Of a DNA stretch of 64,000 bases, positions 16,868 through 37,348 are shown piece after piece. The notes under the pieces were generated by a model. It had not been told where the DNA came from, did not search any database, and saw only the letters and a list, made by a program, of their open reading frames with translations. Numbering within the stretch: the first letter of the stretch is position 1; each line of letters opens with the position of its first letter. This DNA comes from Beta vulgaris subsp. vulgaris (lineage: Eukaryota; Streptophyta; Magnoliopsida; Caryophyllales; Amaranthaceae). The translations under genes were made by a program, and so were the position numbers. The stretch covers positions 3,811,751 to 3,875,750 of the forward strand of contig NC_079210.1 in the NCBI RefSeq assembly GCF_026745355.1, read 5' to 3'.

Positions 16868-18268
16868 GTCTTGCACTGAGTAACAAAGGTAGATTTGCAC
16901 CTTTCATCTATACCAAACCCTTCAATCTTTTAGCCCAACTGATAATTTATTCTATTGAGAAGTCGGTGCCCGACGAGGCTAGCAAAATGTGTAGTAACTT
17001 CAGTATGAGCAAGACATAAGTGCTACTGCTACATGTGTCCGCACGTTCTTCAAGCATATCTAGAAAAGAGAATGTTAGGTGTGCTTTATTAGAATCAAAA
17101 TAGCAGCACGTCTGGTCAAAAGAATTTGTAGTGCAGCGTTTATCATCCAGGTGAATCGTCAATATGGATTAAAGTGATTATTACTTATAACTGTTCAACT
17201 TGTTCGTGCACAAAGATTTGGAGTCAGTGTGATACAGCAATAGTGTGAAGAATAAATGCTTTCCTCTTGTTTCATTACTCCATCAGAAAGTTGATGTATA
17301 GGAAAAAGTATTTTGAAGTAGGAATTAGGACTAGTTACTTAGTAGGTCTTAAGTAGCTATCCTTCTTGTTTTTGTCGCATGTTTTGTACTACGAATTTTT
17401 GTTGTCCTTTGGATTGGTTTTTTTCTCTACTTTGAGGTTTCTTTGAGAATCATATGTTGTTTTGAGACTTTGTAGGAATGAGGGTATGGGACCTCCTTTC
17501 CCTTTTTATATATGATTTCGAAGGTTGAATATTGTCCTTGAAGGATTATCCTTATTTATAGTTTCATATTCTACTCCTTAGAGTAGCATCTCCGTTTTAG
17601 TGGTATTTCCGCTGCCGCTAGTTGCACTATTTCTTTTACTTTAGTCTCTACTCTTCTTTCTATTGGATGGGATGTTACAAAATTAATTATAGTAAAACTA
17701 ATCGGGAAATCAAGGTTCCCGTTTCTAGATTATTTGAGGTCACGGATCATAAAAAGGGAAAAATTTGATAAGTCTTGATATGGTCATGATTGATGAAGAG
17801 GTATGTATTCTCTTTCAATAATCAGTAGAGATTTGTTTAATATTTTATCATTATGATCTTCTTTTTGGCTTTCCCATCTTTCATTCTATATGCGTTAGTA
17901 ATTATGTGTTATATTAAAAGTCAAAGTTGTGGCTGACACTCATATTTTTCTCTATTCTTTATGTCGTGCATTTATTAAATTATTACCCTGTACCTTCTTG
18001 AGTATTATTTAGGTAATTTTCATGTTAAAATTGTGTTAGCATTCTTAGTCATACCAATTAGTAGGATACGAGTTAATAATAGACTGAGCTACAACATTCA
18101 ATTGAATATTAACTATAGAGTAGGGGATAAATAAATCCTTAATAAAGTAAATGCAACTTTATGAGGTAATTTATTGAGTAATTAAATATGGTTTTATTGA
18201 TATAAAGTAAAGGCAATATTGTCAACTATAGTAGTTTTTTGTAACTAAAGTGCAATGATTTTAATAGA
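16868..18268. other. Stretch without a recognised gene
   Basis: Short open frames only. One on the minus strand (16947-17162, 71 codons, Cys/Ser-rich) has no family features that I recognise and is not called. No terminal repeats seen. Confidence 0.4.
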
Positions 18269-18687
18269 GAGTTAAGCATAATATAGGGTACTAAACTTTG
18301 TCTAAAATTACAGTTTACTCACCCAAGTTTCAAAAGTTGCACTTTCCTCACTAAAAGTACAACTCTGTTAAATTTTCTATTAACTTTGAATTTAATATAC
18401 AAAAAAAAGTTGCGTGGCCCAAAAAACTAGAATGACAGTTATACTTTACAAAACAAAAATTAATTTCCCAACGGTAACTTAATCTGGCTATTTATGGCTC
18501 TAAAAAAATGTGATTTTTCTCCAAAATTCTCCAATTAACGCCAACTTCACTTCCTTGCTGTGCTCTGAAACTCCCAAAAAAAAATCCAGCAGTTACAGGT
18601 ACCAACTGCAGTGATAATTTTTCAAACTTAATGTTTATTATCTAATAAAAAAAAAATTCAAACATAATTTTTTCTTTTTGTAGAAAA

Positions 18688-19098
18688 ATGTCAAGGAACA
18701 GGAGTCTCCCAACCATAACATATTGTTACTGTGGATTCATCATGTTCAAGACTAGGTCATGGACTAAAGACAATCCTGACAGAAGATTTCTAGCATGCCC
18801 TGATTATGATCCTGAAGCCAACACCATGGGTTGCAAGTTTTACAGATTGGTTGATGTTGAAGACCCTACAGAGTGGCAGAGGGATGGAATTTCGAATTTA
18901 ATGGAGGAGAACACAGAATTGAAGAATGAGGAGAGTAATTTAAGGAAATTTCTTGGTGGCAGACTTCAAATTGCAAGAAAGATGGCTACGGAGAAGGTGA
19001 TGTTGAAATGCAACATAATGGAGGGTCCAAAAATATTCTTAGATGGTTTTTTTCTAGTACTCTTCACTTTAATTGTTGTGGCTTATGTTCTTATCTAG
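18688..19098 (+). CDS. GRF-type zinc finger protein with coiled coil and C-terminal membrane segment (MULE A second gene)
   Basis: 136 codons, intact. Residues 13-56 form a GRF-type zinc finger: C13, C15, C37 and C49, with RRFLACPDY and GCKFYRL around the last two. Residues about 67-107 are rich in Glu, Lys, Asn and Leu in a coiled-coil pattern (ISNLMEENTELKNEESNL). Residues about 116-136 are hydrophobic to the very end (FFLVLFTLIVVAYVLI), a likely tail anchor. GRF fingers bind nucleic acid in other proteins; the role here is unknown. It lies inside MULE A, convergent with the transposase, and MULE B has an equivalent gene in the same place. It may be an accessory transposon protein or an old captured host gene. 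Confidence 0.75.
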   Translation: MSRNRSLPTITYCYCGFIMFKTRSWTKDNPDRRFLACPDYDPEANTMGCKFYRLVDVEDPTEWQRDGISNLMEENTELKNEESNLRKFLGGRLQIARKMATEKVMLKCNIMEGPKIFLDGFFLVLFTLIVVAYVLI

Positions 19099-19175
19099 TT
19101 ATGACATGGAATGTGTTGTAATGAATGAAACTATATGCAAATTTATAAACAATACTTGAGTTGCAATGAACTTAC

Positions 19176-19253
19176 TTAGTTTAAGTTGTTCTGCCGTCTT
19201 TTAGCCTTTGCTAGACCTTTTAGTGCTTGGCTTGTGATTGTTTGTGGGTTATT
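19176..19253 (-). pseudogene. Displaced end of the MULE A transposase last exon
   Basis: Read on the minus strand, 25 codons run from the CACTA-1 target site to a TAA at 19176-19178. They are in the same phase as the codons ending at 25743 on the other side of the insert. The 3-bp target duplication is the codon AAT. The tail is basic (AKAKRRQ). CACTA-1 therefore landed in coding sequence, about 25 codons before the original stop. Confidence 0.65.
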
Positions 19254-19845
19254 CACTACTACAAAAAGGCCTAGGAAACTGGTTGAAAATGGCCTAGGAA
19301 ACTGGACTATTACACATCTCCATCTCACAGGTGTCCTAGGCTAAGAGACCGGTTATAATGCCTGGTTTCCTTGTTTATTTAGGAGACCAGTGGACAGGTA
19401 AAACCAGTCTCTTAGATAAGTATATATATAATATATAAAGAGGTTAGGAGACCATTTAACATTAAAAACCGGTCTCCTTGCCTTACCCTTTGAAACCATT
19501 TATTGACCATAACCGGTTTCTTAGGTTTAGTAAAATGTTACAATACATACATTACCATGTATTTGGGGCTCTCTTCGTATATACGCTTTTTTTTCTATTA
19601 AAACAATTTATTTTATTTATTTTTTTTTGACAGGTTTGTATAACAATTTATAAATAGCCACAACAATATAATAAAATATAACGACTTGCTTGCTTTATTC
19701 ATCATGTGAAAAAAATATTTGCTACATTTAAGTTATATACAAAATCAATTTGATTCAAAACATCAATTTCTTCTAATAATGTCTTAAAATAAAATTTCTA
19801 TAATCTAATGCTAGCTACTACAACTAAAATTCTAAAATAATTAAA

Positions 19846-20833
19846 GGGTTTTTTGTCAGAAACAACCTTTTAAAAGTGTCATTTTGTCAGAAACAACCTT
19901 ATAAAATTTTTTTTGTGAGAAACAACCTTTAAATGCGATTTTCTTGTCAGATCAGACCCATTGACCATTTTCCGGCATTGACTAGATTTTTCCGGCGAAG
20001 ACTTTTTTCTTTTACCCTCTTCCCTCTCTTTTTCCCTCCAATTTCTTCCTCCCAACCCCACCCCAACCTCCAGCCTCACCCCATTCTCCATCCTCCATCC
20101 TCACCCCATTCTCCATCCTCCATCCTCACCCTCTCGCCTTCTCCTTCGCACAAGAAGTCACCACATCGGCAGTGGCCGGAAGCCTAGGGAAGAGTCCCCT
20201 ATTTCAAACCTAAAGAAACCATTCTCTCTCTCCTCTCTTTCAAATGTCATCCCCCATTTGAATCTCTTGTGAACTTGCCATTTCATCTCTTTTCTCTCAT
20301 TTCACCATGATTGCACAAAAAAATTAGCTTGTTGCCATTAACTACTAAGAAACCATGGCCCTCCAATGTTGCTAACCTAAGAAAATCCCCCTCCCCCCAC
20401 AAGCTTGTTGCCATTAACAATAAGAGTGGAGACAGAAAACAGAGGCGACAAATTTGGGAGAGAAGGAAAGAGGATGAGCAGCAATGGCGGTGTTCAGTGG
20501 CACTGTTCAGCGAGGTGGAGGAGAGAGAAGAAGAAGGCGAGAGAGATGATGCGTGAGAGAATGAGGGGTCAAGGAAGGAAGTGAAAGAGAGGAGAGATAA
20601 TGGTTTGCAATAAGAAATTGGAGGGAAAAAGAGAGTGAAGGGGGTAAAAAAAAAAAGTCTTCGCCGGAAAATCAAGTCTTGGCCGGAAAAAATCAAGTCA
20701 ATGCCGGAAAATGGTCGAAGGGTCTGATCTGACAAGAAAATCCCATTTAAAGGTGGTTTGTCACAAAAAAAAATTTATAAGGTTGTTTTTGACAAAATGG
20801 CACTTTTAAAAGGTTGTTTCTGACAAAAAACTC
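19846..20833. mobile_element. Non-autonomous Mutator-type element with long terminal inverted repeats, nested in CACTA-1
   Basis: The perfect 9-bp direct repeat ATAATTAAA flanks it (19837-19845 and 20834-20842). The ends pair over roughly 170 bp: GGGTTTTTTGTCAGAAACAA at the left and its inverse (GAGTTTTTTGTCAG... when reversed) at the right, then the GAAACAACCTT repeats, the CCGGCATTGAC block and the TCTTCGCCGG block. The centre is CT-rich with CCATCCTCACCCCATTCTCC direct repeats (20080-20135) and a duplicated GCTTGTTGCCATTAAC (20327 and 20402). Open frames inside are low complexity and not called. Confidence 0.88.
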
Positions 20834-20874
20834 ATAATTAAATAATATGTACAATTCAAACTTGACCGTCGTCT

Positions 20875-21845
20875 TCAATCTCCATCTTCTTGTGTTTGAT
20901 TGTTTAAATAATCCACCCACCTATCTCTTAACTCGTCAATCATCTCTTGGGAATAAGTGCTAGGAATTCCTGGAAAGTACTACAAAATATTTTCAGATAA
21001 TTATAATTAGAATTAGTATAAATATGTATTTTATTAGTATGAGCAACAATAGCATTCTCTTCGTTCCTCACAAATATTTTCAATCCCAAAAAGTTATATA
21101 TTAATGAGTGACGAAGTTACCTTATCGGGAATTAATTGTCGTCTACTTGCGATAGTTTCAATCATGTAACGACAAAAATAATAGCCACAATCATTGGAGC
21201 CTAGAGCTTGACGAGGACACTGTCATGAAAAAGTTCAGATAAATCAACAACTGACATAACTATTTCAATTCAAATGTGTCATTACATATAGTATATTTTT
21301 AGATATATTATTACACAAACTTCCACCTTACAGGATTCTTTTTCAATTTCTTGACGTCTTTTCGATGAACCATGCTAAATTTTACAATACCTCTACGAAA
21401 TTTTCACCTAACTTAATTAGATGAAGACATTGATAATAAGATAATTAAAAATATTAATAGACTATGATTAGCTCACATACTCATTGATGATCCGTTCAGC
21501 AAATTCACGAATATAGTCTGCTCCACTAGGATCAAGCCAAAAAACTGTTCCGTTCCAAGGGCTTATGACAGCTAGCATCCAATGTCGACTATATGCAACT
21601 TATTAGCAAAGGCAAAAAAAATACTCATATACACTAATTTAGATCAAATTTCAATATATTACACATACACACTTACTTTTCATGGAAAGGTGCAAAAAAT
21701 AGTTGATTAAGGTTCTTGCCTCCATTGCACCCGAAAACACGACATAAATAGTCAGATCGGTCTTCTTCTATAGTTGGAGTTCATTGAGCTAGGTAATTAG
21801 GATCACAAAATCCATACACCCCATATTATTATGCTGTCTAACAAA
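20875..21845 (-). pseudogene. Ulp1-like (C48) cysteine protease C-terminal exons of CACTA-1
   Basis: Five exons on the minus strand with GT-AG borders and consistent phase. E1 is about 21677-21845 (ends FFAPFHE). E2 is 21481-21588 (RHWMLAVISPWNGTVFWLDP). E3 is 21332-21392. E4 is 21121-21219 (CPRQALGSNDCGYYFCRYM). E5 is 20875-20979 (starts YFPGIPSTYSQEM and ends with a stop). The residues expected for the C48 set are all there: His before Trp and Asp in E2, Gln and Cys in E4. SUMO-type protease domains of this kind are common in plant CACTA and some MULE elements. E1 contains an in-frame stop and no N-terminal part was found, so this is a remnant. Confidence 0.78.
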
Positions 21846-21941
21846 ATTAACGAATATATCAAATGTATAAGATAGGAATGGTGTATGTTATGCAGTCTAA
21901 CAATGCTGAAAAATTTGATCTCATAACTTCAAACTTATATA

Positions 21942-22108
21942 CTTTCTCCGTTTTATTTACCAAGGAAAAAGATAGACAGAAAGAAAATGAGGAACCCATG
22001 TAATAAGGATAGAGATAGAAAGAAGTGGATATCAAATAAAATAATATTTCATTTATTTTGAAACGATCTAATATGGTAAGTGTTTCATTTATATTAGAAC
22101 GTGGGAAG
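21942..22108. mobile_element. Stowaway-like MITE nested in CACTA-1
   Basis: Left end CTTTCTCCGTTTTATT preceded by TA; right end AGAACGTGGGAAG followed by TA. The ends pair imperfectly as inverted repeats (CTTTCTCCGTTTTA against CTTCCCACGTTCTA). Length about 167 bp, no coding content. Confidence 0.55.
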
Positions 22109-23041
22109 TATTAAAGTATTAACGATCAAATTAGGTGATAATGTTACAATTATAATTTCAAAATAATATATCAAAGTAATTATTAGGCATTTCTCAGTTC
22201 AGAATTCAGATCCTTCTTCCCCATATTTGTGCACTTCTTAGTTCTTGGGATACATCACTTCTTAGTTCTTAGAGAGATAAACAGGTAATCACCCACTTCT
22301 GCTTTGCCTCACATTTTGATAGATCAAACATTCATTTATTACATTACATCCACAACATTTTAAATTGTTATTTCTTGCTACTTTCTGATTTCAAACATTC
22401 ATTGATCATCATAGATTTTGAAATCTGATTCTCTTACACAACAACCCCAAAAATATTCAATCGAATTTTACTAATTTTAATATCTACATCTTTTCATGCA
22501 TCTTATTTGTTGATATTTCTGTAATTTTCTCTTAACTTAGCTTTAATTTTACGCTCTCTTCTAAAGGGTATCTCCAAATTCTTTTTCTCTCCTTAATTTA
22601 ACTCATTCTCTACGCAAGTTATGGTGATAATGTTCTCTTAAATTTTCAGGTATAAGAGGCTTGAAGTTTTGTCTGCCTTCACGAATGCTGTAAGTTATGC
22701 ATATGCCAGATTATTATGGCGGACCTATGCCATCCATATGATCTAATTTTTCTACTTTTTCTTTCTCAATGTTAATTGAATGTTGTTTGGTATGGCTGAT
22801 TATATGTCCTGATTTGGATTACTGTATATTTGTATTTCCCTGAAAGAAGGGTTTTTTCAAAATCGGAGTCTACAATGGTTGTAATAGAATGTACTTTCTT
22901 CCTGCCTTTCATTCATTCATTTTATAATGATTATGCAAGTGGTAACCTTCTCATAAGCTATGTCTAATACGGATCAGTATAGATTGAGTTGTGTTTCCTG
23001 AAGCTAAGAACATCACTCAATTAATCAGTATAAGTTTTTCA

Positions 23042-23113
23042 GAGACCAACAGCAGCACTACAACATCCATTCTTAAGAGACCAACAACAGCACTACAGCA
23101 TCCATTCTTCCAT
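23042..23113. repeat. Short direct duplication of about 36 bp
   Basis: AGAGACCAACAGCAGCACTA is followed about 36 bp later by AGAGACCAACAACAGCACTA, each then continuing ACA(A/G)CATCCATTCTT. It lies directly before the 190-bp array and shares its CAGCA-rich character. Confidence 0.7.
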
Positions 23114-23159
23114 GTATGTAAATAATAAAATTTAGTTCTAAATACCTTATGTTCGTCCT

Positions 23160-24005
23160 GAGGAGCAAAACAGCAGCAAAACATATTGGATAGAACAGAG
23201 GTAATAAGAGAGATATGGAGGAGTTATAGAGTTAGTATCATAGAGCTAACATCATATTGTTTCTCCCACAGCTATCACAATGATAAATTAGGCAGCAAAA
23301 CAATGGAATAAGTGCAAAACTGCAGCAAAACAGCAGCATTTTAAGAAAGGCATAGGTATGGAGGAGCAAAACAGCAGCAAAACATATTGGATAGAACAGA
23401 GGTAATAAGAGAGATATGGAGGAGTTATAGAGTTAGTATCATAGAGCTAACATCATATTGTTTCTCCCACAGCTATCACAATGATAAATTAGGCAGCAAA
23501 ACAATGGAATCAGTGCAAAACAACAGCATTTTAAGAAAGGCATAGGTATGGAGGAGCAAAACAGCAGCAAAACATATTGGATAGAACAGAGGTAATAAGA
23601 GAGATATGGAGGAGTTATAGAGTTAGTATCATAGAGCTAACATCATATTGTTTCTCCCACAGCTATCACAATGATAAATTAGGCAGCAAAACATTGGAAT
23701 ACGTGCAAAACAGCAGCATTTTAAGAAAGGCATAGGTATGGAGGAGCAAAACAGCAGCAAAACATATTGGATAGAACAGAGGTAATAAGAGAGATATGGA
23801 GGAGTTATAGAGTTAGTATCATTGAGCTAACATCATATTGTTTTTCCCACAGCTATGACAATGATAAATTAGGCAGCAAAACATTGGAATAAGTGCAAAA
23901 CAGTAGCATTTTAAGAAAGGCATAGGTATGGAGGAGCAAAACAACAGCAAAACATATTGGATAGAACAAAGTTAATAAGAGAGATATGGAGGAGCTATAG
24001 AGTCT
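23160..24005. repeat. 190-bp tandem repeat array in CACTA-1 (about 4.4 units)
   Basis: Units begin GAGGAGCAAAACAGCAGCAA at 23160, 23361, 23551, 23741 and 23931. The first period is 201 bp because of an extra CAGCAAAAC-type insert; the next three are 190 bp. Units are nearly identical, with a few substitutions. Each contains the polypyrimidine-CAG string TTGTTTCTCCCACAG. There is no coding frame through it. Confidence 0.93.
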
Positions 24006-25742
24006 TCATACCTGTGGCAAATTATGTTCACTAATAGGTTTAGTGTCATAGTCCATTTCGCGCAAATGAATACTCAGCTCGTGGGGGAAGGATTGGGCAG
24101 CTGATAGTGAAGCTCAGGTTCTTGTTGAGTCACTGCATCCTCAGGCAAACGAACATTATGGTATTAATCTATTGACTATCATTTCTCTCTTTTTACAAGA
24201 TAAAATACAATGGTGGGACCATTTACAAGGTGGACAAGGATCATATCCAATCACACAGATGAAACATATGATTTATCAAAAAAAAAAGTATACTGTGAAG
24301 CTGCATTAATAATGCACAAGTGGGGTTACAACAATGCATATATAATAAGGTTGTTGATAAGCATTAGTAGTGTTATAATGGTATTAATCTTAAAGCATCA
24401 ATGGCCAATTATGATATCAATGAAGTTATAGAAATACATATCAATGGATTAGTAATCATAAAGTTCAGTTAAACTACAGCAAACTGTCCATTCATATCCA
24501 ATTTGAGGTTCCAACCTTTCTTCTATTAGTCCATTCATATCCAATTTATATCATCATGTATATATTTCTAATTCCTCATTATGTTCATGATAACAACAAA
24601 GTTATAAACAATATACCTAAATGAAAAAAAAAAACACAATAAGTTATGAATAGCAAGAAGAAAATAATCGAAAGAATTCATTGAGGCATTTAAACAAACA
24701 CATTGTAGGCAACTAAAACTGAGATGAAAAGCTTGCTAACCAGAAAAAAAAATTGCACGAATCACCTTTACAAGTGCACCAATTTTATACTTTGTCTTTT
24801 TCTTCCCAAAAGAATCACAAATTGATGAAAATAATATAAAACTCCAGAAGAATTGATGAAAAGAATTGACGAGAATCACAAATTGATGAATATAACAATG
24901 AAAAGCTTGCTTGGCAGACAACAAAAATTGCTCGAATTACCTTTACGTACAAGTGCACCAATTTTATACTTCTTCGAAAATGTCTTTTCTTCCCAAATGA
25001 ATCACAAATTAGCGAAAAGAATCACACATTCCAGAAGAATTGACGAAAATAATTGACGAGAATCACAACTTGAACAATGTGAGAGCCTTGATTATGAATT
25101 TTACGAAAGCAAAGGTGAAATTTTGATGGAAGAATTTGGATTATGGGGGAGAATTTTTGGATTATGGGGAGTGGTGGTTGTAGGGATGGTGTGCGAGTCG
25201 ACTGAACTATGAGATTGTTAAAGCTATGGCGTAAGTTGCTATGGCGGCAAGAAGCAATGGCGTAGTTTTTTTTTTTGTTTTGACTGTTACATGTATTAAT
25301 CACGATCTAGATTCTAGAGTAGTATTAGGAGAGGTAGTTTTTTTTTCTATTATATTTGTTGCATAATTTTAAAAGTAAATAGTTTTATTATAAAACTTAT
25401 ACTGCATTAGTATTAATTAAAAAGATATTAAAGTTTAAAATTATTATATTTAGGAAACCGGTTGAAGTTAGAAGTAGTCTCCTAAATCTTCACAATAAGA
25501 ATACATACGTATAATAGTGTATTATGTTAAAAAAAAATTGAATTAAAAAAATAAAATATATCAAGGAAACCAGTTGTATTTGGAAACAGTCTCTTATTTC
25601 ACAATAATATTTTTTATTAGTCAAATACTTAAACTTAAGAGACTGGGTTTAGATAATAAATGGTCTCCTATATTTAAGAAATGGGTTAGTAACCTCAACC
25701 GGTCTCCTATAGGTAGTCTCTTTGGCCATTTTTGTAGTAGTG
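24006..25742. other. Right part of CACTA-1, mostly non-coding
   Basis: No transposase recognised. A diverged duplication is present: the stretch with AAGTGCACCAATTTTATACTT occurs near 24770 and again near 24950, each after GAAAAGCTTGCT. The subterminal GGAAACCGGTT-type repeats begin near 25450. Confidence 0.55.
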
Positions 25743-25892
25743 ATTAGAACTAACATCAGGTTGTGACCAATTGTAATCTTGATTGAAGGAGTAAACAGTC
25801 TGATCTCCTTCAAAATATGAGTAGAAAGCTATTGCCCTTGATCGCCTGAATACAGGTTGTGACCTTGCACTCACTTCAGTTTGAGGAACAAA

Positions 25893-25973
25893 CTGCAGCA
25901 ATAAACATCAATTAGTTATCTGATAACAGGATAAAAAATTTGCTTAATACATGTTAAAATCAAATTCACTTAC
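25893..25973 (-). other. Last intron of the MULE A transposase gene
   Basis: Donor GTAAGT after the codons for GHQRIVI and acceptor TGCAG before TTTGTTCCTCAAAC; 81 bp. The upstream exon ends with a Gly-Val-Gly-Val motif at the same place as in MULE B, whose equivalent intron is 35163-35238. Confidence 0.6.
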
Positions 25974-26987
25974 AATTACTATTCTCTGATGTCCATTAGG
26001 GTAAGTATATACACCTACTCCTCTATTGTGCATTGGTGTTGTTGCTTGTTCAGTGGTAGTTGTTGCTTGTTTAATGCTAGTTGAAGGACCATAGTTATTA
26101 GACCTCACATTTTTACACTCTCTCTTGTTGTGTTTTTGTATGCCCCAAGAACTACAAGTCATTGCAGTCCTAACATTCTTTAACTTACCTGATTTGGTTA
26201 CTTCTCCATCTTGAAGTCTCCTTTTGGTTTTAGGTCTATGTTGAACCTTTTTCAGTTTGGATGAAAGCACTAAGGAGTCACATTGTGGCTACTCTTGAAG
26301 ACCATTCAATGGCTCCAACAAAAACTCATAGGCTTTCATGTATATTTCTTTTCTGAAAAAATGACAAACATATTGTTCATGTTCATCAACTTTGTTCTAT
26401 ATAGCCACCACTGCATGCTGGCAAGGTATTCCACTAACTTGCCATGCATTGCAGCTACAAGTTCTTTCTGTCAAATTAACAACGTACTTAATTTGAGTGG
26501 CTTCTTCTCTTACTCCATAACAAAAAACCACCATCCCAGAAAGCACACCCTCTAGGCCAAATCTTGTGATTCTCTAGAAGTTGTTGAATTCTAAGCCATA
26601 AAAACACTTCTTTCTTCCTAATTTCATCTCTTATTTTATGTAATCTTTCCATCAAACCCTCTCTAATGTCTTCAAGTATTGTTATGATTGGCTTATGTCT
26701 ACTATTCAGGATGTAAGCATTGAAAACTTCTAACATGTGTTGTTGTCAACACTATCACAACATGACATGGAACTATAGAAAGCTCTACATTACTTCCTAT
26801 ATTATAGTTTCTATTTAGTAGATCTTTTGCTACAGCAACAGAAATTTGCCTCATCACTTCAATTTGAGTATTAAACTCATTCTCAATTGTGGATTTGGCA
26901 ATAATCCAAAATTGCTTCCTGTACTCCATGCCGCCACCAAAAACAGTTCTAAAGTTTGTGTACACATATCTAACACAAACTCTTGTT

Positions 26988-27422
26988 TCAACTTCTGGAA
27001 AGACTAGCTTCTCTCACAGCAGCTAACAATCCCTTTTGTTGATATGACGTGAATATGTACCTTGCACCTTCTTTGCACCCTAAATCTATTGCCAGCAAAT
27101 TCAAAAACCAAATCCAACTATAAGTGCTTTCCACCTCTACCACTGCCCAAGCTATGGGGAAAGATTGTTTATTCCTATCTCTACTTACTGAAACTAGTAG
27201 CTGCCCTCCAAATGGACCCTTAAGAAAACAACCATCAAGTGAAATAAATGGCCTACAACCTGCCATAGAACCTCTCCTCAATGCCTCAAAGCATAAGTTA
27301 TCCCTCTCAAACACATTCTCATTCATCTGAAGCTTGACAATGTTGTTTCTATTACTCCTAAGGATCTTAGCTGTATATCTTGGGAGTAGTGCATACTTCT
27401 CTCTCAAGCCAAATTGTCTCAA
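26988..27422 (-). pseudogene. MULE A transposase segment: DDE catalytic core
   Basis: 144 codons open. FISLDGCFLKGPFGG holds the first catalytic Asp and PIAWAVVEVESTYSWIWFL is the conserved strand-helix pair. The second Asp position is Tyr in TSYQQKGLL. It then runs off frame into Ser/Arg at 26988, and the core goes on in other frames at 26965 and 26736. Confidence 0.8.
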
Positions 27423-27942
27423 TTATGTCTTGCAGCTTAATGTAAGGGTTCACCTTAAACTTAGTTTGGTAGTTTACAGCTATCCAACTTGCTTTCATCT
27501 TCTTCAGTTTTGGAGTTCTCCCACAAGTGTGTTCAGGAATATGTGTTTTCACCATGAAATTCCTCCTCCCTCTTTTCCAAAATGCCCAAATTTTCCATGG
27601 GCATCCTTTGTTCTTATTAATGCAATGTTTACCAACCCTCTGACTGTCATTTCTATTCATAGGAATGTCCCTACCAACTAAAATGGAGTAGTCAATAAGC
27701 AATTTCTTAAAGGTTTTAGCATTCTTAAATGAGAGTCCAATGTAAAACTTAGACTTGTTACCCTTTCCTTCCTCCAATAGCATGTCCTTGCTTCTCGTAG
27801 TTGGTTCTGGTGCAACTAGATACCCATAATCCTCCTCATCTAATTCACTAGGGCTTTCTAAATCACTCCTATCTTCATCAAATCCAGCTTCAATGTTAAT
27901 GCTCTTGCCCTTGGTCTGAGCTAGCCTAGTCAACATCTTCAA
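27367..27942 (-). pseudogene. MULE A transposase segment: acidic linker and MuDR N-terminal domain
   Basis: 191 codons open. Residues 20-45 are acidic (FDEDRSDLESPSELDEED). Residues about 65-170 carry the MuDR-type DNA-binding domain: FYIGLSFKNAKTFKKLL, a Cys pair (KHCINKNKGCPW) and a His-Cys pair (IPEHTCGR). Family knowledge places terminal-repeat recognition here. It is joined to the core by a frame change near 27400. Confidence 0.8.
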
Positions 27943-28515
27943 CTCCTCTTCATATATGATAATTGCTTCTTTTTATCCTCCCTCACCCTATCCCTAGCAT
28001 GCACTACCTCAACATCATCTTCATTAGTACCTTATGCGTCATAGTCTATGTCTGCTTGGTTCACATTTGTTGAAGGAATTGGGTTCTCTACTGAAGTCAG
28101 TAAGTTAAGAAAGGAATTAGTTTGGCTATTGAGGTCAACCTGAACTTGGGTCTGGCTACCTACATAAATGGGTCTTCTACCTCATAGTTATGGTCATTGT
28201 AGATAATGAATCACTTTGTAGGTCATAAGTAATTATAGGAATGGGTGAAATGTACTTTTAATCATAACCAAGAAACCTAATACCATTGTTGAAGTCCTTC
28301 CTAGGGTTTGAGTAATGGAGTTTCATTATGTTCTTATGACCTAAGCTGCTAATAAAGTCTTTCAAGTAAGACATACTCACACAATCAGGTATGTGCTCAA
28401 ACACACTAACATGCCCTCCATTGTATACCATGCCACATTCAGATGTCCATTTTCCACCATGATGCACAATCAAACATGGATTAAGTGCAACTTCTTCAAT
28501 AATAAAAGATCAAAC

Positions 28516-29768
28516 AAAATTATTGAAGTAAATGAGAATATGTGTACCAAAATCAGTCATTTCCATTAATTTCATCATCAATTTACATCAATAAAGTTGG
28601 CTCCTCATGTAACACCATCAACCAACCAAGTAGAGCCAACTTTGTACAATCGAAACAAGGATGTCATAACAGTGACAAATGCCAAAAACAAAACCTAACT
28701 TTTGTTACATTCAACTTCTACATATGGCTATGACATGCATCCTAATACAATTCATAAAAAGCTTAACAATAGGCAGCTACTAACCTAAAAAATTACATTT
28801 GCCTACCCACAACCTCGCCCATACACAACCTACAACACATCAGTTCTCCTTGAAGAGCCAAGGGAAGCAATCGAAATACACAGTCATGTCTTTGGAGAGA
28901 CAAGCCATCATGTCCACCCATTGTTGTAAATTATATTATATTATTGAGGGCCCAAACCTTAAAATTAAATCACTATCAGTTCCAAAGTAATGTTGTCCAA
29001 ATGAAAGCTGCCTCAACCTACACTATATCCTCCATTTCTTGTAAATCAGCTCCACACTCATTTGAGCTTCCCAATCTAGCTTTGGGAATATATGGAAGCA
29101 CATGATGTTTTACTCATGACACAGGGGGTGTAAAATATCTAGGGCAGTCAATCCTATGCACAATTAAAAAAATAAATGGTTTAAACAAATCCAACTTTAA
29201 CAAATCCTACTTTTCATTTAAACAAGTTTTCAATTGATTAGGGCTTATTTTAATCGAGAAAATAAAGCAGTTAATACAATTAAAAAAATTGAACCATAAT
29301 CCCTAACAGCTTCAAATGATATTTTAGTCACATAATTACCAAAAATTGAAGTAAAATTACTCAATACTCACATGTTTCACACATAATCACACAAAAAAAA
29401 TTGATTACTCATCCTTTTCATGATATTATGCAAAAAACAGTAGAAAAAACAAACCAGACTTTACAACATCACTTTCCGAAAAAAGAAAGGAATCTAAGAA
29501 AAAGTAGTTAAGAATATACCTTGGGGAGGAGAAAGATTTGAAATTTTCCCGGCTGCTGAGCTTCCCTACGCCATTTTTGTCTTCAACCAATTAAGGAGAA
29601 ATAAATGAAAGTTTTGAGGAAGAAGGTTCTTTTTCACTTGCAGAGAATATAATAAGTGTTGAAGTGAGCTGTCTAGGTTTTATATAGTACAACCAAAAGG
29701 AAGTACTTAGGGCGCTAAAAATACCGCCCCTTCATTACTCCTCCTAGATTCTTGTGCGTTTTCTTATT
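28516..29768 (-). other. Upstream and leader region of the MULE A transposase gene
   Basis: Low coding content. Probably holds the 5' UTR and a long intron of the transposase gene, plus the inner part of the MULE A right end, cut at 29770-29778 by the MULE B target duplication. Confidence 0.4.
29672..29690 (-). promoter_or_regulatory. Possible TATA box of the MULE A transposase gene
   Basis: TATATAAAAC on the minus strand, inside the right end region of MULE A and about 1.2 kb upstream of the first recognised coding block. A likely leader and intron (CCCCAAGGTATATTC near 29520) follow. Position fits. There is no expression evidence. Confidence 0.35.
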
Positions 29769-30567
29769 TTAATTAAATGGAAAAATTGATAAAAACATTT
29801 CCAACTATTGGACATCTTCTATAACCAGTCTCAATTATTAATTAATTAATATTAGTCCTAACTTTAACACATGTTTGAAACTAACAGACTCTTGGAAGGA
29901 TTAACCTGCTATAGCAGGTAAAAAACACCACGTGACCCTCATGTGATTTTTAATGAAACCCCCTCCCTTTCTTCCTTCTTCCTTCTTCTTTCTTTTGCGA
30001 ATTTTCCCACCTAAGCATTCAATTCCTCCATAACTCCTCCTACCTACCTGTCAGACGCCATTAATTGGCCTCTGCAATTCATCTTCTCCAGAGAAAGGAA
30101 CGATTTTTTCGGGCGACATTGAAGGTATAAATAATGAATTTTTTATTTCTTTAATTTTTTTAATTGTATTGTTGTTTGTGTGTTTGGGGAAATAAGTGGA
30201 AATTTCTGGTTTGCAATTTGTTGTTGTGGTTCATAATTTTGTTTGTGGTTTAGTAATGGGTTGGTTCTGGTAATGTAATTCAAAATTTGAAGGTTTATTT
30301 CTTCAATTTTTTTTATCATCTTTGCATTGTGTATAAATGCAAGGAATTAGGTGATTGAAATTTGTTCTTGTTGGATTGTCTGTATGAATACAGGTGTGAA
30401 TTTTGTGATTGGTCTATGAATTATGGATACTAATGTAACCCTTAGGTTTTGGCATGGTGGAAGTTTTAAACACAGTGAGAAGGGAGTGCAGTATGTGGGG
30501 GGCAAGGGAGGACCTTTCTAGTTGACAGTGATGAATTATGTTGGTGGTTTCTTGAGGAACTTGCAAG

Positions 30568-31822
30568 CACTAGTAGAATAAATGCTATTTGCTGCGGTGG
30601 TATTGCTGCGGTTTTACCTATACGCAGCAATATAAGACGCAAAAATAAATAAAAAAATAGAAAATGACTATATTGCTGCGGTTCCCGCCAAAAACCGCAG
30701 CAATATTGTCCAACAGAATAATTTTGAACAAAATGTGGTGCACAGGCCAGCTAATATTGCTGCGGTTTCCGTGTAAGACCGCAACAATATATTAAAAAAC
30801 ATTTTTTTAATATATTGCTGCGGTCCTACGTGGAAACTGCAGCAATATAAACGCTTAATATATATATATAACTCACGCGCGCCCCTCCCTTCAAAGGTTA
30901 CAAAACTGAAAACCCTAAATTAAAAATAGCGCCTCCCTCAGCTCCTTCCCCCCTCCCTCTCACTCCTACTCCTTTCTCTCTCATTTTCGCAGTGCGTTCT
31001 CTCTGCTTCACCCACCTGCTTTCTCCCTCCTTCACCCTTTACCCTTCACCCTCCTGCATTCTCTCTCCTTTTTCTTCGCCGAAAATACAGGGGAGACAAC
31101 CAGAAATTAACGGCCTCAGTTTCTTCGCCGGAAATACACCGCGACAGTCGTCGCTCGTGAAGCCGGCGTTCTTCTTCCCGTCAACCTTCGAAAGGAGCGA
31201 CGCCAAGCGCACCGGCTCAACCGGATTGTTCGTCACTCCTCTACTTCGCCGTTCGATCCAGATTTCTTCGTCGACCGCAAGACAAGCCGCCTCTGACGAG
31301 TTCTTCTTCGTTTTTGTTTTTGTTTTTCCTTTTTTTCGTTTTATTTTTTATTTTTTTTTGGCTATCAGTTGGTGGAGGGTTGTTTGTTTTCCTCAGGTTT
31401 GGTGATGTTTTTATTTTTTATTTTCAGATGTTGTAATATATTTTTATGCTTTTTTGTTTAATTTTGTAGTTACAGTTTCATTATAGTGTGGTGATATTGT
31501 TTTTTAAGATATTTTTTTCGATTTTCAGTTTTTCAGATTTTCATGTTCTTAGTTTTTTCATTACAACTTTTTGAGCGTACTAAAAGCTTTTGAGTTTTTT
31601 ATTATTAAATATAGCATATTGCTGCGGTTTTCTTCACAAACCGCAGCAATATTCTTTTTAAATCTGATATAAAATAAATATATTGCTGCGGTTTGGCCTA
31701 AAAATTGCTGCGGTTTAAAACTGCAGCAATATTTAATTGCTGCCCCCTTAATTGCTGCGCGACCAAAACTACAGCAATAGGGCACTTTTTAACCGCAACA
31801 AATAGCATTTATTCTACTAGTG
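30568..31822. mobile_element. CACTA-2: small CACTA of the TTGCTGCGG family (copy 2), nested in MULE B
   Basis: Ends CACTAGTAGAATAAATGC and GCATTTATTCTACTAGTG, with the perfect 3-bp duplication AAG (30565-30567 and 31823-31825). The same ATATTGCTGCGGTTT subterminal repeats as the copy at 3083-4631, but in reverse orientation: its left end matches the reversed right end of that copy closely. The centre (30880-31400) holds a GC-richer leader-like part with Arg/Ser/Phe frames, not a recognisable gene. Confidence 0.93.
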
Positions 31823-32795
31823 AAGAAAAAGTGATTCATACACAAAAATAGATGAGAGTTACTACTCAATTCCTGGTATGAGTTTCAAAGATGGGTTGAG
31901 GAGAGTTTATGCTGACAAAGAGGTTTTAGCCATGACCCCTACAGTTTTACAACATAAATTCATCGACCTCTATGTAGCACATAGTGTTGATAAACCTCAG
32001 TTAGTACCACTTGAGCTTGGGTACATTGAGGAACAACCAAAACAGCAACCAAATGCATTTAGTACCCCAAAAAGTGGTCCCACAGAAACTACCTTTTAGG
32101 AGGGTCCACCTAAAACTACCCCAAAGTCCTTGGAAGGTTCAAATCTCAGAAGAAGTCCTAGGAAAGCATCTTCCCAGGAGGGCGTAAAATCTATTCCCAA
32201 CTTTTCCCAGCCATGAAAATCAAAAGCCTGTCATGCTCCAAACCCTAACATAAAAAAAATTGAACCTCCCATTTCATCTCCTCAGCAGCCCTCACAAACA
32301 AACAACCCTCCCATTACATCTCCTCAACAACCCTCACTCACAAAAGACCCTCACATTTTATGTCCTCAGCAGCACTCACTCACAAAAGACCTTCCCATTT
32401 CATCTCCTCAGCAGCCCTCACAAACAAACAACCCTCACATTACATCTCCTCAACAGCCCTCACACATAAACAACCCTCCCGAATCAGCTGCACAACCCTC
32501 ACACACAGCAGACCAGCCCTCTTGTTCATTTGCTCCTCCAAGCCCTTGTCAGTGGATGGGGACAATGAAGAGGGTGAAGAAACAGATCTTGAATTAGAGG
32601 AGGAGTTCAATTTAGATGAACTTCACAGAGAAGCATTTGAATACATCCCTTTATGTGATCATGATCTGGATGGTAGTGATGATGAGTTGAGAGATGCAAG
32701 AGAAAATGAGAGGGTTTGCACACAGAAGTTATTGGCAATAGCTGAACAGCTGCAAAGAGAAGCTGCTGCTGCAAAGACTGGAGGTGAAGTAGTTA

Positions 32796-33332
32796 ATGAG
32801 GGAGGGAATGTTGAAAGAGAGGTCCATGAGGGGTATTTCAGTGAGTATGAGAATATTGATGATGAGATTGACGCCTGATGAGAGTGATGATGATGTGTTA
32901 GGAAGTAAACAAAGAAGAGTCAGGAGAGTTATTGTGAGTGAGACCACTGATTTCACATCATTTGAGTGGAAAGTTGGTTACAGATTTGCCAATAGAGATT
33001 CATTTAAGAAGGCAATAGCAAAGTTTGCAATCATTCAGGGTAGGAGCTTGAGTTTTGTCACAAGCAATAAGAATAGGCAACAAAGATTGGAGGTTAGGTG
33101 CTTGGCTGGGTGCAAGTTCAGATTGTATGCTTCTTGGGACAATAACAAAGAGAGTTTCATTGTTAAGTCTGTTAGATTCAGGTCACATTTAATTTGCAAC
33201 AGGAATATGGAGAAGAACAAGCAGCTTAAGTCCACATGGCTTGCTGCACAGTTCATTGAAATTTTCAAGGCCAGGCCTCATTGGCCTGCAAAAGAAATAA
33301 TGGACATTGTGAAAAGGGCATATATGATCTGA
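32796..33332 (+). pseudogene. MULE B transposase segment: MuDR N-terminal domain
   Basis: 178 codons open. Residues from about 55: KVGYRFANRDSFKKAIAKFA, RLEVRCLAGCKFRLYASWD, then FKARPHWPAKEIMDIVKRAY. This is the DNA-binding N-terminal part of MURA-type transposases. The expected His-x-Cys after the Cys pair is weak here (RSHLICNRN). The first residues of this frame are out of phase with the acidic linker at 32360-32878, so a frameshift lies near 32870. Confidence 0.75.
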
Positions 33333-34007
33333 ATCAAAAAGGATGTAGCATATAAGGTAATGTATTATTCCCACAGGATGTTGCATGACAGTATGCAAGA
33401 ACATTACAACAAAGTTGCAAGATATGTTTAGGTTTTGAGAGAGTGCAACCAGGGGAACCACATTGCACTAGTGACTGATGACAGTAAAAAAAAACCCTGT
33501 GTTTAAGAGGTTGTTTGTGTGTTTTGAGGGTTTGAAGAAGGGGTGGATACAGGGTTGTAGAAAAGTCTTATCCATTGATGCTTTTTTTAAAGACTTTTCT
33601 TGGAGGTCAACTAATGGCTGCAGTGGGAAGGGATGAGAATGATTAGATGTTCCCTGTGGCTTGGGTAGTGGTTGAGGGGGAGAATAATGATTCTTGGGAT
33701 TGGTTCATGCTTCAACTACAAAACTTCTTGGAGTTGGGCAATGGTACATGACTTGCAATCATCTCAGATGAGCACATAGTAAGTAAACTAACACTTGTAG
33801 TTTTGTAGTTGTACACACATTTAACTAACACTTGTACTAACACTAGCACTCAATACATTTTCTTATGTAGTCTATCTTGAGCTCAGAGGGTGCTACCAAA
33901 TGCTGAACACCACCATTGTTCAAGGCACATTTTCTCACACTGGCATAGAGCATTTGGAGAGGATGAGATGAAAGTGCTGTTTTGGAGGGCGTGAAGGCCT
34001 ACAACAT

Positions 34008-34301
34008 GTGATTACCATGATGTATGCATTGGATGATATGGAGAAGGTAAATCCTAATGCAGTCATTGGATTTAAGAGCTATGATCCTAAAGTGTTTTGT
34101 GGACCTTTCATGAAAACACAAACTAAGGTTGATGTCACATTGAATAATTTAGTTGAAACATTCAATTGTTACATTATAACTGCCAGAACAAAACACATAA
34201 TTTACATGTTAGAAGAAATTAGGACATCCCTTATGCAAAGGCTTGCTGTGAAGAAGCTAGGAATGGAGAAAGTGACTGGGAAGTTGTGTCCTAGGATATA
34301 G
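34008..34301 (+). pseudogene. MULE B transposase segment: post-core helical region
   Basis: 97 codons. KSYDPKVFCGPFMKTQTKVD, then NNLVETFNCYIITARTKHII and LEEIRTSLMQRL match the conserved 'E-FN--I---R-KPI---LE-IR--LM-R' block of plant MULE transposases. It ends in a stop at 34299-34301. Confidence 0.8.
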
Positions 34302-34789
34302 ACCAAGCTAGAAAAAAACAAAGAACTAGTTGCCCAATGCATTGTGGTCCCTTCCACAGTTACTGTTTTTCAAGTTAGCTACTACATGGATGCGTTGGAG
34401 GTTAATTTAGGTGCTAGAAGTTGCACATGTAGGTATTGGTACTTGACTATGATCCCCTGTGCCCAAGCTATTTCTTGTATTTTTTTTCTTCACAAAGATG
34501 CTGAGGACTTTGTGTCTGAATGGTATCACAAAAAATACATATTTGAAATCTTATGCTGGTAGCATCCCCCCTTGTGTTGGTGAGAGGCAATGGCCTAGGG
34601 TCCACCTACCAACTCCACCTCCCATAAAGATAGGTCTAGGTAGGCCCAGGAGAAACAGAAGGAAGGACCCCTTTGAGAACCCTAAAAAACTAGGGAGACT
34701 AACAAAGCATGGGGTCCAAATGAGCTGTAGTATATGCAAGGAAACAACCCATAACAAGAGGACGGAGATGTCCTAATAAGGACAGGGCT

Positions 34790-35032
34790 GTGGAACCACC
34801 TAATAAAAGGCAGAGAGTTAGCGCTGAACAACCCCAAACTTCCTCTCATTTGAATGCTACTGCTGAACCTACAAGGACTAGAAGAAATAGAAGGGTCATT
34901 AGAGGAGGAAGGGGAAGCAGGAGTGGTGGAGGAAGAGGAAGCAGGGATGGTGGAGGAAGGGGTAGCAGGGGTGGCAGGACTAGAACCAGGAGAGGTAGAG
35001 GAAGAGGAAGGAGTGCATCTCAACAAGTATGA
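34790..35032 (+). pseudogene. MULE B transposase C-terminal Arg-Gly-rich tail exon
   Basis: 80 codons. From residue 33 on there are repeated RGG/RGR units (RRVIRGGRGSRSGGGRGSR, then TRTRRGRGRGR), typical of basic nucleic-acid-binding tails. The coding part most likely ends at 35027 at a GTATGA donor. Two small exons, 35109-35162 (IPSGVGVFIAHDGSSFLN) and 35239-35337, then complete the protein. Confidence 0.6.
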
Positions 35033-35162
35033 CTCAATCATCCTCTTCATTTACTTCACTTTGCTTGGATTTAGGAAATTCACCACTTACTTGTTTTCTT
35101 GTCAACAGATACCATCTGGGGTTGGAGTGTTTATTGCACATGATGGCAGTTCTTTCTTGAAT

Positions 35163-35238
35163 GTAAGTAAACAATGCATCTTCCTAATTTTTTTTGTTAA
35201 GTACCCCCGTGTGCTTTACTAATTATTCTATTTTGTAG
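35163..35238 (+). other. Last intron of the MULE B transposase gene
   Basis: Donor GTAAGTAAAC, acceptor TTTTGTAG; 76 bp. The preceding exon ends GVGVFIAHDGSSFLN and the following exon opens ALTQQGGPIEI and stops at 35335-35337. Same location as the intron at 25893-25973 in MULE A. Confidence 0.6.
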
Positions 35239-35639
35239 GCCCTCACTCAACAAGGAGGTCCAATTGAGATCACACAAAGCTCAACCACAGTGGCTGATGG
35301 ATGTCGAATTGGAAGTCAAGCATCAACACCTTCCTAAGACCATGTATTTTGAGATAGATAAACAGTTTATGATTAAGAATCTTTTGTTGATAGAACTAAA
35401 CAATACCCTTGTTAGATATGTTTAACAAGTTGTATTGCAAACAAGGAACAACTTTTTTTGGGAACACTTGAATGTATTGACTGATAACTAATGTTTCATT
35501 GCAAGCAAGTAAAAGCTAATCAAGGATTTCATTTCATTTCTTCATTGCAATGGTTACACCATGTTCTGAATCAGTGCATAACTGCAACTTCTAAAAGATC
35601 AACAAGAAAACAATGATGAAAACTACCCATGACAACACT

Positions 35640-36108
35640 TATGCAATAGTTGCATATTTTTCCCCTCTCCCATGTTTTGACTTCTCATCATTCAGTAGTA
35701 AAATTACATTCTTCAGTTCTTCATTTGCATCCTTCAGCTTCATTTTCTTCAAGTTTGTCTTGTCCAACCTCATCTTCACATCTTCTACCTTTGTTTCAAG
35801 AGCTACACATTCAGTACATATGTAATCTTCACCATCATCATCCTTCCATCAAAAAAAATGGCATTCTTCATTGTTCTACAATAATAGAAAATTTCAGTTT
35901 CCCCTAAAAACCCTAATAAGTGTGCCAAATCAAAATATTGCATAGGTTTACTTTCTGGCCACAACGAGCACCCATAAAATTGTTTCCCTTGATTCTTCTC
36001 ACTCCTTCCAGTCCTCAATTTCGCAGCCAAATTGTGGTGGCACTTCAATGTAGAATCTCTTCTTCCATTAGAGTGCTTCCTCGAAGTGGTGGATGATGCA
36101 CCTGACAT
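35640..36108 (-). pseudogene. GRF-type zinc finger gene of MULE B, frameshifted
   Basis: From the Met at 36108: CHHNLAAKLRTGRSEKNQG at residues 23-41, then QFYGCSLWPESKPMQYFDLAH, a GRF-like finger. Its pattern is C23-His, C47, and the last Cys position appears to be Met/Gln. The open frame ends at 35803. A coiled-coil-like stretch (VALETKVEDVKMRL, LKDANEELKNVILLL) follows in another frame down to about 35640. So a frameshift separates finger and coil, or an intron not seen here. Position and orientation copy the GRF gene of MULE A (18688-19098): near the far end and convergent with the transposase. No C-terminal membrane segment was seen. Confidence 0.65.
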
Positions 36109-36499
36109 TTTCGCAAAAACAAACTGGAAGGGGGGAAATTTCGCAAAAGAAAGAAGAAGGAAGAAAGGGAGGGGGTTGCATTAAAAATCACGTGAGGGTC
36201 ACGTGGTTTTTTTACCTGCTATAGTAGGTTAACCCTTCCAAGGGTCTGTTAGTTTCAAACATGTGTTAAAGTTAGGACTAATATTAACTAATTAATAGTT
36301 AGGACTAAATATAGAAAATGTCCAATAGTTGGGACTAATTATAGAAGGTGTTCAATAGTTGGGACTGTTTTTATCAATTTTTCCTAATTAAATATCATAA
36401 AGTTAGCGGGCCATGTTAATAGAATAGTACTTTGAGTGAGTAAACTGCAATTTCTATGCAAAGTTTAGTACCCTCTAGTATGCTTAACTCTTTCAATAG

Positions 36500-36667
36500 A
36501 TGAAATTACCCAGAGTGATAATTGTTGCAATAAAACGGAGGAAGTATGTAAATATTATGGAGTTGAAAAATCTCATTTCACAACAATACAAAACAAACAA
36601 TGTTAACAAAAATTTGCAAAAAATAAAATAAACAACAATCCGTGCAACGCACAGGCTTCAAAACTAG
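36500..36667 (+). mobile_element. Possible Helitron 3' end
   Basis: CCGTGCAACGCACAGG (36640-36655) can fold into a short stem with an AAC loop. It is followed 8 bp later by CTAG and then T (36664-36668). A hairpin shortly before CTRR, inserted next to a T, is the Helitron 3' signature. No 5' end (TC) or Rep/helicase was identified, so this is one-ended evidence only. Confidence 0.35.
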
Positions 36668-37022
36668 TATATACCAATAACTTGAAATGATCATGTCAAG
36701 AAAAAAATAACTTGAAAAGATAAATAGAAAATGACTTCCAACTTCAAGACCTGGGCACCCTTTTACTATAAAAAAAAACGAGAGTCCACAACCCAATTAG
36801 TTGTTTCTTTTGCTTATATATTTTGGTTCAGCTTCAACTCTTGGACTTAGTTTGTTGAGTGATTTTTATGGATTCACATTACTGAAAAAATAAATCAAAA
36901 TGAGACTTATATAAGCATTAACAGCTCATAGCCCTTGGTCATTCCATTAGATTTGGAAAATTGATATTTCCCCAAAAATTCATATTTTCTTATGGCAGAT
37001 TCTGCATAATGGCCTCCCCGTA

Positions 37023-37256
37023 ATGTCAAACGTAGTAACAAGACAAATAATGGATAGCTCTCGTTGTCCGATGCATCATACAGGATCTGAAACCATAAGT
37101 CATCTTTTCTTTACATGCCTTATTACTCAAGAATATTGGAACTCTAATCATATAAGGCAAAAAATTTGGTCTATTATACCAACTAATATTGAACAATGTC
37201 TTGCCTCACTTCGTCACCATCCTATGGCTATTCGTTTGGTTAGCTATAGCATTTAG
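37023..37256 (+). pseudogene. LINE zf-RVT (reverse transcriptase zinc-binding) fragment
   Basis: 77 codons. CPMHHTGSETISHLFFTC holds the Cys-His-His-Cys-like pattern common after the RT domain of plant LINEs, followed by EYWNSNHIRQKIW. It ends in a stop, but similar sequence (SIWKEHNSIVFERSN) continues in frame beyond it. Confidence 0.65.
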
Positions 37257-37348
37257 AGCATATGGAAAGAACACAATTCTATTGTTTTTGAAAGAAGTAA
37301 TGTCAACATAGATCTTATATACTACATAGCCTGGCATTTGCAACAGGA

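Follow-up and report, generated by a model that had tools for sequence, protein, structure and literature searches.

Does a small gene that recurs in two diverged transposons belong to them, or was it picked up by each on its own account? The question is raised by a stretch of 64,000 nt from Beta vulgaris subsp. vulgaris (assembly GCF_026745355.1, contig NC_079210.1, positions 3,811,751 to 3,875,750 of the forward strand; termed here the window, with positions counted from its first letter). Two Mutator-like elements (MULEs), A and B, lie in the window, and each carries, besides a transposase, a second gene (GRF-A and GRF-B, respectively) for a small protein with a GRF zinc ribbon. An earlier note, made from the letters of the window alone, had placed this gene at the far end of the element from the transposase start, pointing towards the transposase, and had held the arrangement to be older than both copies. 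Open reading frames (ORFs), Pfam profile matches (both PF03108 and PF10551 exceed the cut-off for MULE A, and PF03108 does so for MULE B), terminal inverted repeats (TIRs) and target-site duplications (TSDs) bear out this layout. In the genome as a whole, the gene is best read as an accessory gene that is old and has been inherited vertically in several MULE lineages. Computation established that it lies inside the element, that one orientation prevails, that it diverges in step with the transposase, that its ratio of nonsynonymous to synonymous substitution (dN/dS) is low and that a three-part protein design recurs. That the small GRF gene is a resident accessory gene with a tail anchor is very probable. 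Overall, the favoured reading is that of a resident accessory gene of related TIR-MULE lineages with a proposed helper role in tethering and DNA binding, to which a probability of about 0.78 is given.

The whole 569-Mb genome (20 contigs) was searched for GRF and transposase places. Queries with GRF-A and GRF-B (E <= 0.01) and with the Pfam GRF model PF06839 gave 362 merged GRF places, and pieces of the two window transposases gave 272 transposase places; as each query contributed its best ~150 places, all linkage counts are lower bounds. With this narrow query set, at least 138 of the 362 GRF places are located within 8 kb of a transposase place, where chance would give 2.8, and in all 138 pairs the transposase lies downstream on the opposite strand, in convergent order. 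MULE A of the window is outside this set, because a CACTA-like insertion separates its genes by 8.7 kb. Widening the transposase set to 641 places by the addition of PF10551, PF03108 and two transposase C-terminal queries brought at least 228 of the 362 GRF places within 12 kb of a transposase place. The corresponding figure was 12.0 in a control in which the same places were displaced by 50 kb to 1 Mb (200 rounds). Of the 228 listed pairs, 216 are convergent with the transposase downstream, 10 have it upstream and on the strand of the GRF gene, and 2 are of other configuration; the shifted control is even over the four configurations, at about 3 each. Likewise, a GRF place is present within 12 kb at 77/142, 83/150, 79/149 and 93/146 of the places found with the four transposase queries.

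Neighbourhood by chance is rejected on the basis of the orientation (216/228) together with the shifted control. A shared preference for regions dense in transposable elements is rejected as the cause as well, since the control shifts the same places and strong enrichment is seen in only one of the four configurations. Thus the alternative raised in the earlier note, that GRF proteins of this type lie mostly far from MULEs, does not describe this genome. The note had also spoken of 'a MULE lineage'; residence in MULEs stands, but a single lineage does not, since the arrangement is carried by the A type, the B type, the L002 type and a further group with larger spacing and partly tandem order. 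In the MULE group best matched by PF10551, the GRF gene is mostly 5-8 kb from the transposase, convergent or tandem (for example C2:5228773/5236655, C6:57356778/57364742 and C10:13868320/13860716); these elements are larger and may hold further genes.

A random sample of 20 of the 138 pairs was examined; one of the 20 (L043) happens to be MULE B of the window. TIRs were obtained for 15 of the 20, with 81-212 bp aligned at 83.5-99.1 % identity (E <= 4.3e-18), and in every one of the 15 both the GRF gene and the transposase are located between the TIRs. MULEs typically have TSDs of 8-11 bp, mostly 9. TSDs of 9 bp, some of them A/T-rich, are perfect at nine of these loci and have one mismatch at two more (null expectation 0.2 % and 1.7 %). 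At their aligned ends, the remaining four loci show two mismatches (one locus) or three (three loci). L043 is counted with three mismatches; its true ends are further out, and a perfect TSD is present there. In 14 of the 15 loci, the GRF alignment starts 246-610 bp inward of the outer TIR end; in L034 the distance is 884 bp. Given this proximity to the outer end, the TIR probably drives the GRF gene, as it would the transposase at the other end.

Protein-level distances of the GRF and transposase regions were compared across 21 loci, i.e. the 20 random pairs and MULE A, with 1999 permutations. The two sets of distances correlate (Mantel rho 0.82, P 0.0005), and do so within the subfamilies (A type, 9 loci, rho 0.74, P 0.0065; B type, 12 loci, rho 0.49, P 0.0015). 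The A/B label used here is crude: L038 was called A, yet its nearest transposase and its nearest GRF are both in L040, a B-type locus. Co-divergence of the two genes, which the earlier note had named as a check, is thus apparent, and the view that the arrangement predates both window copies is supported. Repeated recent capture is rejected as the main reading on the same correlation. A grouping of each MULE-linked gene with a different host gene was not seen in the 21 loci, where the evidence is the distance correlation and host GRF genes are outside the comparison. No host parent gene was identified in the genome, with only 5 of the 134 GRF places unlinked to a transposase place inspected. 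For the GRF part, dN/dS is 0.15-0.47 in the 15 defined of 16 comparisons.

The protein design recurs in three parts. PF06839 scores above its cut-off in 8 of the 10 copies scanned, with L011 and L029 below it. GRF-A itself goes unreported by this model at E <= 0.1; its relative in L045, 41 % identical in the alignment, scores 33.0 bits. The ribbon cysteines of GRF-A are C13, C15, C37 and C49 (CxC...C...C), as read from sequence and alignment; C15, C37 and C49 are invariant across nine aligned copies, and zinc binding is predicted only. Eight relatives are 22-75 % identical to GRF-A. The AlphaFold2 model of GRF-A, which is of modest confidence (mean predicted local distance difference test, pLDDT, 73.7; predicted template modelling score, pTM, 0.35), consists of ribbon strands and then a single long helix. 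Among solved structures, the nearest by sequence to the L002 copy is the GRF region of NEIL3, a weak match (E 0.0032).

The tail was scored in 29 loci: the 20 random pairs, MULE A, L045 and seven 3-kb loci. It was defined as a hydrophobic stretch in the last 35 residues following a charged segment, in any of the three sense frames <=750 bp from the GRF start. By hydropathy, a tail-anchor-like segment is present in 21 of the 29 loci, compared with a mean of 0.45 and a maximum of 2 in 40 shuffle rounds and with 0 on the reverse strand. The membrane-anchor-like end that the earlier note had described for the MULE A protein is therefore present, but is not peculiar to that protein, since copy B retains a remnant as well. 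A tail is also found in 18 of the 31 homologues taken from databases, with sources in Spinacia, Amaranthus, Chenopodium, Bienertia, Beta, Arachis, Thalictrum and elsewhere. Four of the database proteins (P0017, P0024, P0026 and P0028, from Ancistrocladus, Dionaea and Nepenthes) carry their hydrophobic segment at the N terminus and resemble a host gene. The two exons of the MULE-borne copy L037 are matched at 91 % and 97 % by P0009, which is recorded from Beta vulgaris. Three short GRF proteins, P0007 and P0011 of Bienertia and P0027 of Arachis, are recorded as topoisomerase 3-alpha or AP lyase, names apparently given only because of the GRF domain.

GRF-B is less complete. Its second part is in a different frame from the first, following an intron position that resembles those of related copies. 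Two in-frame stops precede its end, and thus the window copy is not intact. Beyond a stop, at 35591-35640 (-), there is a membrane-anchor-like stretch similar to those in L007 and L031, which suggests that copy B once had a tail. Five B-type copies (L026, L032, L036, L037 and L041) probably have a common intron position, located by eye after the ribbon motif GC.LWP; that of L037 is backed by P0009. GRF-A of the window and L025 read through without an intron.

Two aspects of the window were not in the earlier note. MULE B is nested in MULE A, the right end of MULE A being the insertion site, and a CACTA-like element, located between GRF-A and the MULE A transposase, splits the MULE A genes. In the ORF list, both window transposases are fragmented into pieces. 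Coordinates are collected in the table.

Table. Positions in the window of MULE A, MULE B, their genes and the elements nested in them
Feature	Position	Strand	Remarks
GRF-A	18688-19098	+	Open, 136 aa; GRF zinc ribbon, charged helical middle, C-terminal membrane-anchor-like segment
GRF-B, frame with first exon	35809-36108	-	Ribbon part ~35950-36108; PF06839 26.6 bits against a cut-off of 25.9
GRF-B, probable second exon	~35591-35871	-	Last ribbon cysteine, coiled coil, membrane-anchor-like remnant; two in-frame stops
MULE A, whole element	18269-36491		Two nested insertions inside; from TIR alignment and flanks, ends uncertain by one base
MULE A, TSD	18260-18268 / 36492-36500		TTTAATAGA / TTCAATAGA; 8/9 matching
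MULE A, left TIR (aligned part)	18268-18326		88 % inverted match to 36432-36491, E 3e-13
MULE A, right TIR (aligned part)	36432-36491		Pairs with 18268-18326; TIRs ~60 bp
CACTA-like element in MULE A	19254-25742		TSD ATT; ends CACTACTACAAAAA/TTTTTGTAGTAGTG
MULE A transposase, DNA-binding piece	27367-27936	-	PF03108 (DBD_Tnp_Mut), 36.3 bits
MULE A transposase, catalytic MULE domain piece	26991-27326	-	PF10551, 32.3 bits
MULE B, nested in MULE A	29779-36384		Perfect 9-bp TSD TAATTAAAT (29770-29778, 36385-36393)
MULE B, left TIR (aligned part)	29801-30012		89 % over 212 bp with 36129-36332
MULE B, right TIR (aligned part)	36129-36332		21 bp between its end and the GRF-B start
Small CACTA-like element in MULE B	30568-31822		TSD AAG; CACTAGTAG...CTACTAGTG
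MULE B transposase, DNA-binding piece	32889-33332	+	PF03108 (DBD_Tnp_Mut), 33.3 bits
MULE B transposase, pieces matching the MULE A catalytic-domain piece	33499-33709	+	tblastn in L043, coordinates converted

Several other repeats are apparent in the window. Within the larger CACTA-like element, an inverted repeat of ~230 bp (19838-20047 / 20612-20840, 85 %) constitutes a further nested element of foldback type, and a 190-bp unit is repeated in tandem at 23160-24003 (4.4 copies, 95 %). The small CACTA-like element is present as pieces at two sites, 3083-4631 and 30568-31822. An inverted pair of 1.3 kb at 12477-13792 and 45714-47041 (91 % identity) represents two copies of an unclassified repeat. 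Just beyond MULE A, the frames at ~36900-37930 resemble what we take to be a plant long interspersed nuclear element (LINE) end, RNase H-like. An Rfam scan of the window gave no match.

Some GRF genes occur without a listed transposase. Five of the 134 unlinked GRF places were inspected (L045, L011, L001, L007 and L012), of which only L045 and L011 could be assigned. L045:4643-6758 (G000:C2:39993693-39995808) is an element of 2.1 kb with 241-bp TIRs at 98.8 % and a TSD matching at 8/9; it holds an open GRF gene with a tail anchor, and no transposase piece was found within it. In L011, a transposase-type zinc-knuckle frame is recognizable by eye on the opposite strand. L002 and L004 were likewise unlinked at first, until transposase C-termini (SWIM and zinc-knuckle, by eye) were recognized there in convergent order; these were the source of the two added queries. 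The L045 family comprises ~5 copies of 5.3-5.4 kb alongside many shorter ones (1.2-2.6 kb). Eight short elements of this family, L045 included, have TIRs and no stop in the GRF match, are unlinked and are too small for a transposase. Of 13 deletion events, nine have kept the full GRF region, where 5.2 would be expected from random breakpoints (P 0.018). These events were sorted by eye and not blind, the element that supplied the query itself bears a GRF gene, the best 40 candidates per search were used, and L045 alone was examined as sequence. Selective retention of the GRF gene in short deletion derivatives is thus weakly suggested, at most.

A number of observations weigh against a resident, inherited and functional gene. 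Among the matches listed, no transposase place lies within 12 kb of 134 of the 362 GRF places, and the transposase is upstream on the same strand in the 10 pairs mentioned above. A GRF place is present within 12 kb at only 25 of the best 150 PF10551 places and 31 of the best 150 for PF03108, which indicates that the GRF gene marks certain lineages and not every MULE. No TIR was obtained for 5 of the 20 random pairs. The nearest neighbours by GRF and by transposase disagree at several loci (e.g. L037 and L043). The dN/dS comparisons are short and have sequences in common, and one of the 16 has dS = 0 with dN 0.035. Additionally, the tail criteria were fixed after the frames had been read, and 8 of the 29 loci, including MULE B of the window, have no intact tail anchor. 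At some loci the tail is in a different frame from the ribbon, so that such copies would be frame-shifted or spliced.

With these points set beside the linkage, the orientation and the co-divergence, the resident accessory gene is still preferred. At the element end remote from the transposase start, the GRF gene begins 0.25-0.9 kb inside and is read towards the transposase. The encoded protein has a GRF zinc ribbon at its N terminus, then a charged part resembling a coiled coil, and a predicted tail anchor at its C terminus. The following function is proposed for it. The tail may insert into the nuclear envelope or the endoplasmic reticulum (ER), with the GRF ribbon facing the nuclear or cytosolic side, and the coiled coil may multimerise the protein. 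GRF ribbons of repair proteins bind single-stranded DNA; the ribbon here could similarly bind DNA, possibly single-stranded DNA at element ends or gaps. Membrane insertion combined with DNA contact would therefore make the protein a transposition helper, tethering the element or the transposase at the membrane. This tethering and DNA-binding role is put forward tentatively. A bolder version, in which a DNA transposon superfamily has an integral membrane protein of its own, the tail-anchored, coiled-coil GRF protein keeping either element DNA or the transposase complex at the nuclear envelope or the ER in the ordinary course of the life cycle and being of enough use for small derivatives without a transposase to retain it, is possible but doubtful.

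Other origins for the gene fit the data less well. MULEs might have taken up a host GRF-membrane gene in separate Pack-MULE-like captures, without any role for the element. Gene capture by MULEs is well described (PMC6446971, PMC13317346), host-like GRF proteins with a membrane segment exist (P0017, P0024, P0026 and P0028), and one event per lineage could give the same orientation. However, the place, mostly the direction, and the distance to the TIR are alike in diverged families, the GRF and transposase distances correlate even within families, and dN/dS is low. Moreover, the host-like proteins have their hydrophobic segment at the N terminus, whereas the MULE-borne ones have a tail anchor. 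Separate captures are thus very improbable; one ancient capture, with the gene passed on vertically ever since, fits the best explanation. It is just as improbable that the gene is an old passenger in decay, carried along and no longer used. Stops or frame breaks in many copies, and the broken B copy of the window, are what such a passenger would show, but dN/dS is well under 1 in all 15 defined comparisons, the tail is retained at the frame end across diverged subfamilies and the short derivatives tend, weakly, to keep the gene.

Two further alternatives concern what the protein does. It could be an anti-silencing factor that counters host silencing of the element rather than helping transposition, for which VANC of the Arabidopsis VANDAL elements is the precedent (PMC5735166, PMC6446971); the strong divergence of the GRF relatives would fit sequence-specific targeting. 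However, the VANC domains DUF1985 and DUF287 had no match in 7 window proteins (E <= 0.1) or 10 GRF copies (E <= 0.01), and a factor bound to chromatin would not obviously be built with a tail anchor, which leaves an anti-silencing function rather unlikely. A trap is unlikely too; here the coiled coil or the GRF ribbon of the tail-anchored protein would keep a host factor involved in repair, silencing or import bound at the membrane. A ribbon, a charged middle and a tail anchor would suit such a device, and GRF ribbons do occur in repair proteins, e.g. NEIL3, to which the L002 copy has its weak match (domain drawing legend, PMC6523847), but there is no known partner. The inherited accessory gene with a proposed helper role thus continues to be the preferred account.

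Plant MULEs have few accessory genes, most of them without an assigned role (mudrB, VANB and ORFR are examples), and VANC shows how informative a single one can be. The GRF gene adds a widespread one, found at hundreds of places in one genome; its three-part design recurs, and testable predictions (membrane insertion, DNA binding) follow. A membrane anchor encoded by a transposon, if true, would be unexpected to most in the field. Some of the plant proteins recorded as 'uncharacterized GRF-type' are explained as MULE-borne, P0009 among them, and such genes may often pass as host genes in annotations.

Among the matches listed from open-access titles and abstracts, none links a GRF gene with MULEs (subscription literature and Repbase being outside this scope), and the term GRF does not occur in the main text of PMC6446971, PMC5735166, PMC13317346 or PMC9168764. 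As far as the open-access literature goes, a GRF accessory gene of MULEs therefore appears to be undescribed. In MuDR of maize, mudrB has the corresponding place, in convergent order with mudrA. To our knowledge, its product MURB has not been described as a GRF or tail-anchored protein, a statement made without sequence comparison with mudrB. MuDR resembles the MULEs described here in being a TIR-MULE with two genes in opposite directions, the transposase gene mudrA and mudrB (PMC9168764). The nearest described case, compared by description only, is ORFR of the Abermu MULEs of grasses: in type II it is opposite in direction and lies between the transposase and the 3' TIR, the elements have 9-bp TSDs, and its Ka/Ks is below 1 (PMC9168764). 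As described there, ORFR is given no domain name, and no similarity is reported between the ORFRs of distant plants. The VANDALs of Arabidopsis are, likewise, MULEs with accessory genes (VANA, VANB and VANC; PMC5735166), one of which, VANC, encodes an anti-silencing protein (PMC5735166, PMC6446971). However, VANDALs are classed as non-TIR MULEs (PMC13317346) and VANC carries DUF1985/DUF287 (PMC5735166), whereas the MULEs of this genome described here have TIRs, and their extra gene is a GRF gene. By profile, 8 of the 10 copies scanned share their domain with the PF06839 family, which includes NEIL3, APE2 and others. The GRF-bearing repair proteins of this family are large enzymes; in the MULE-borne proteins, a charged helix and a tail anchor are all that accompanies the ribbon.

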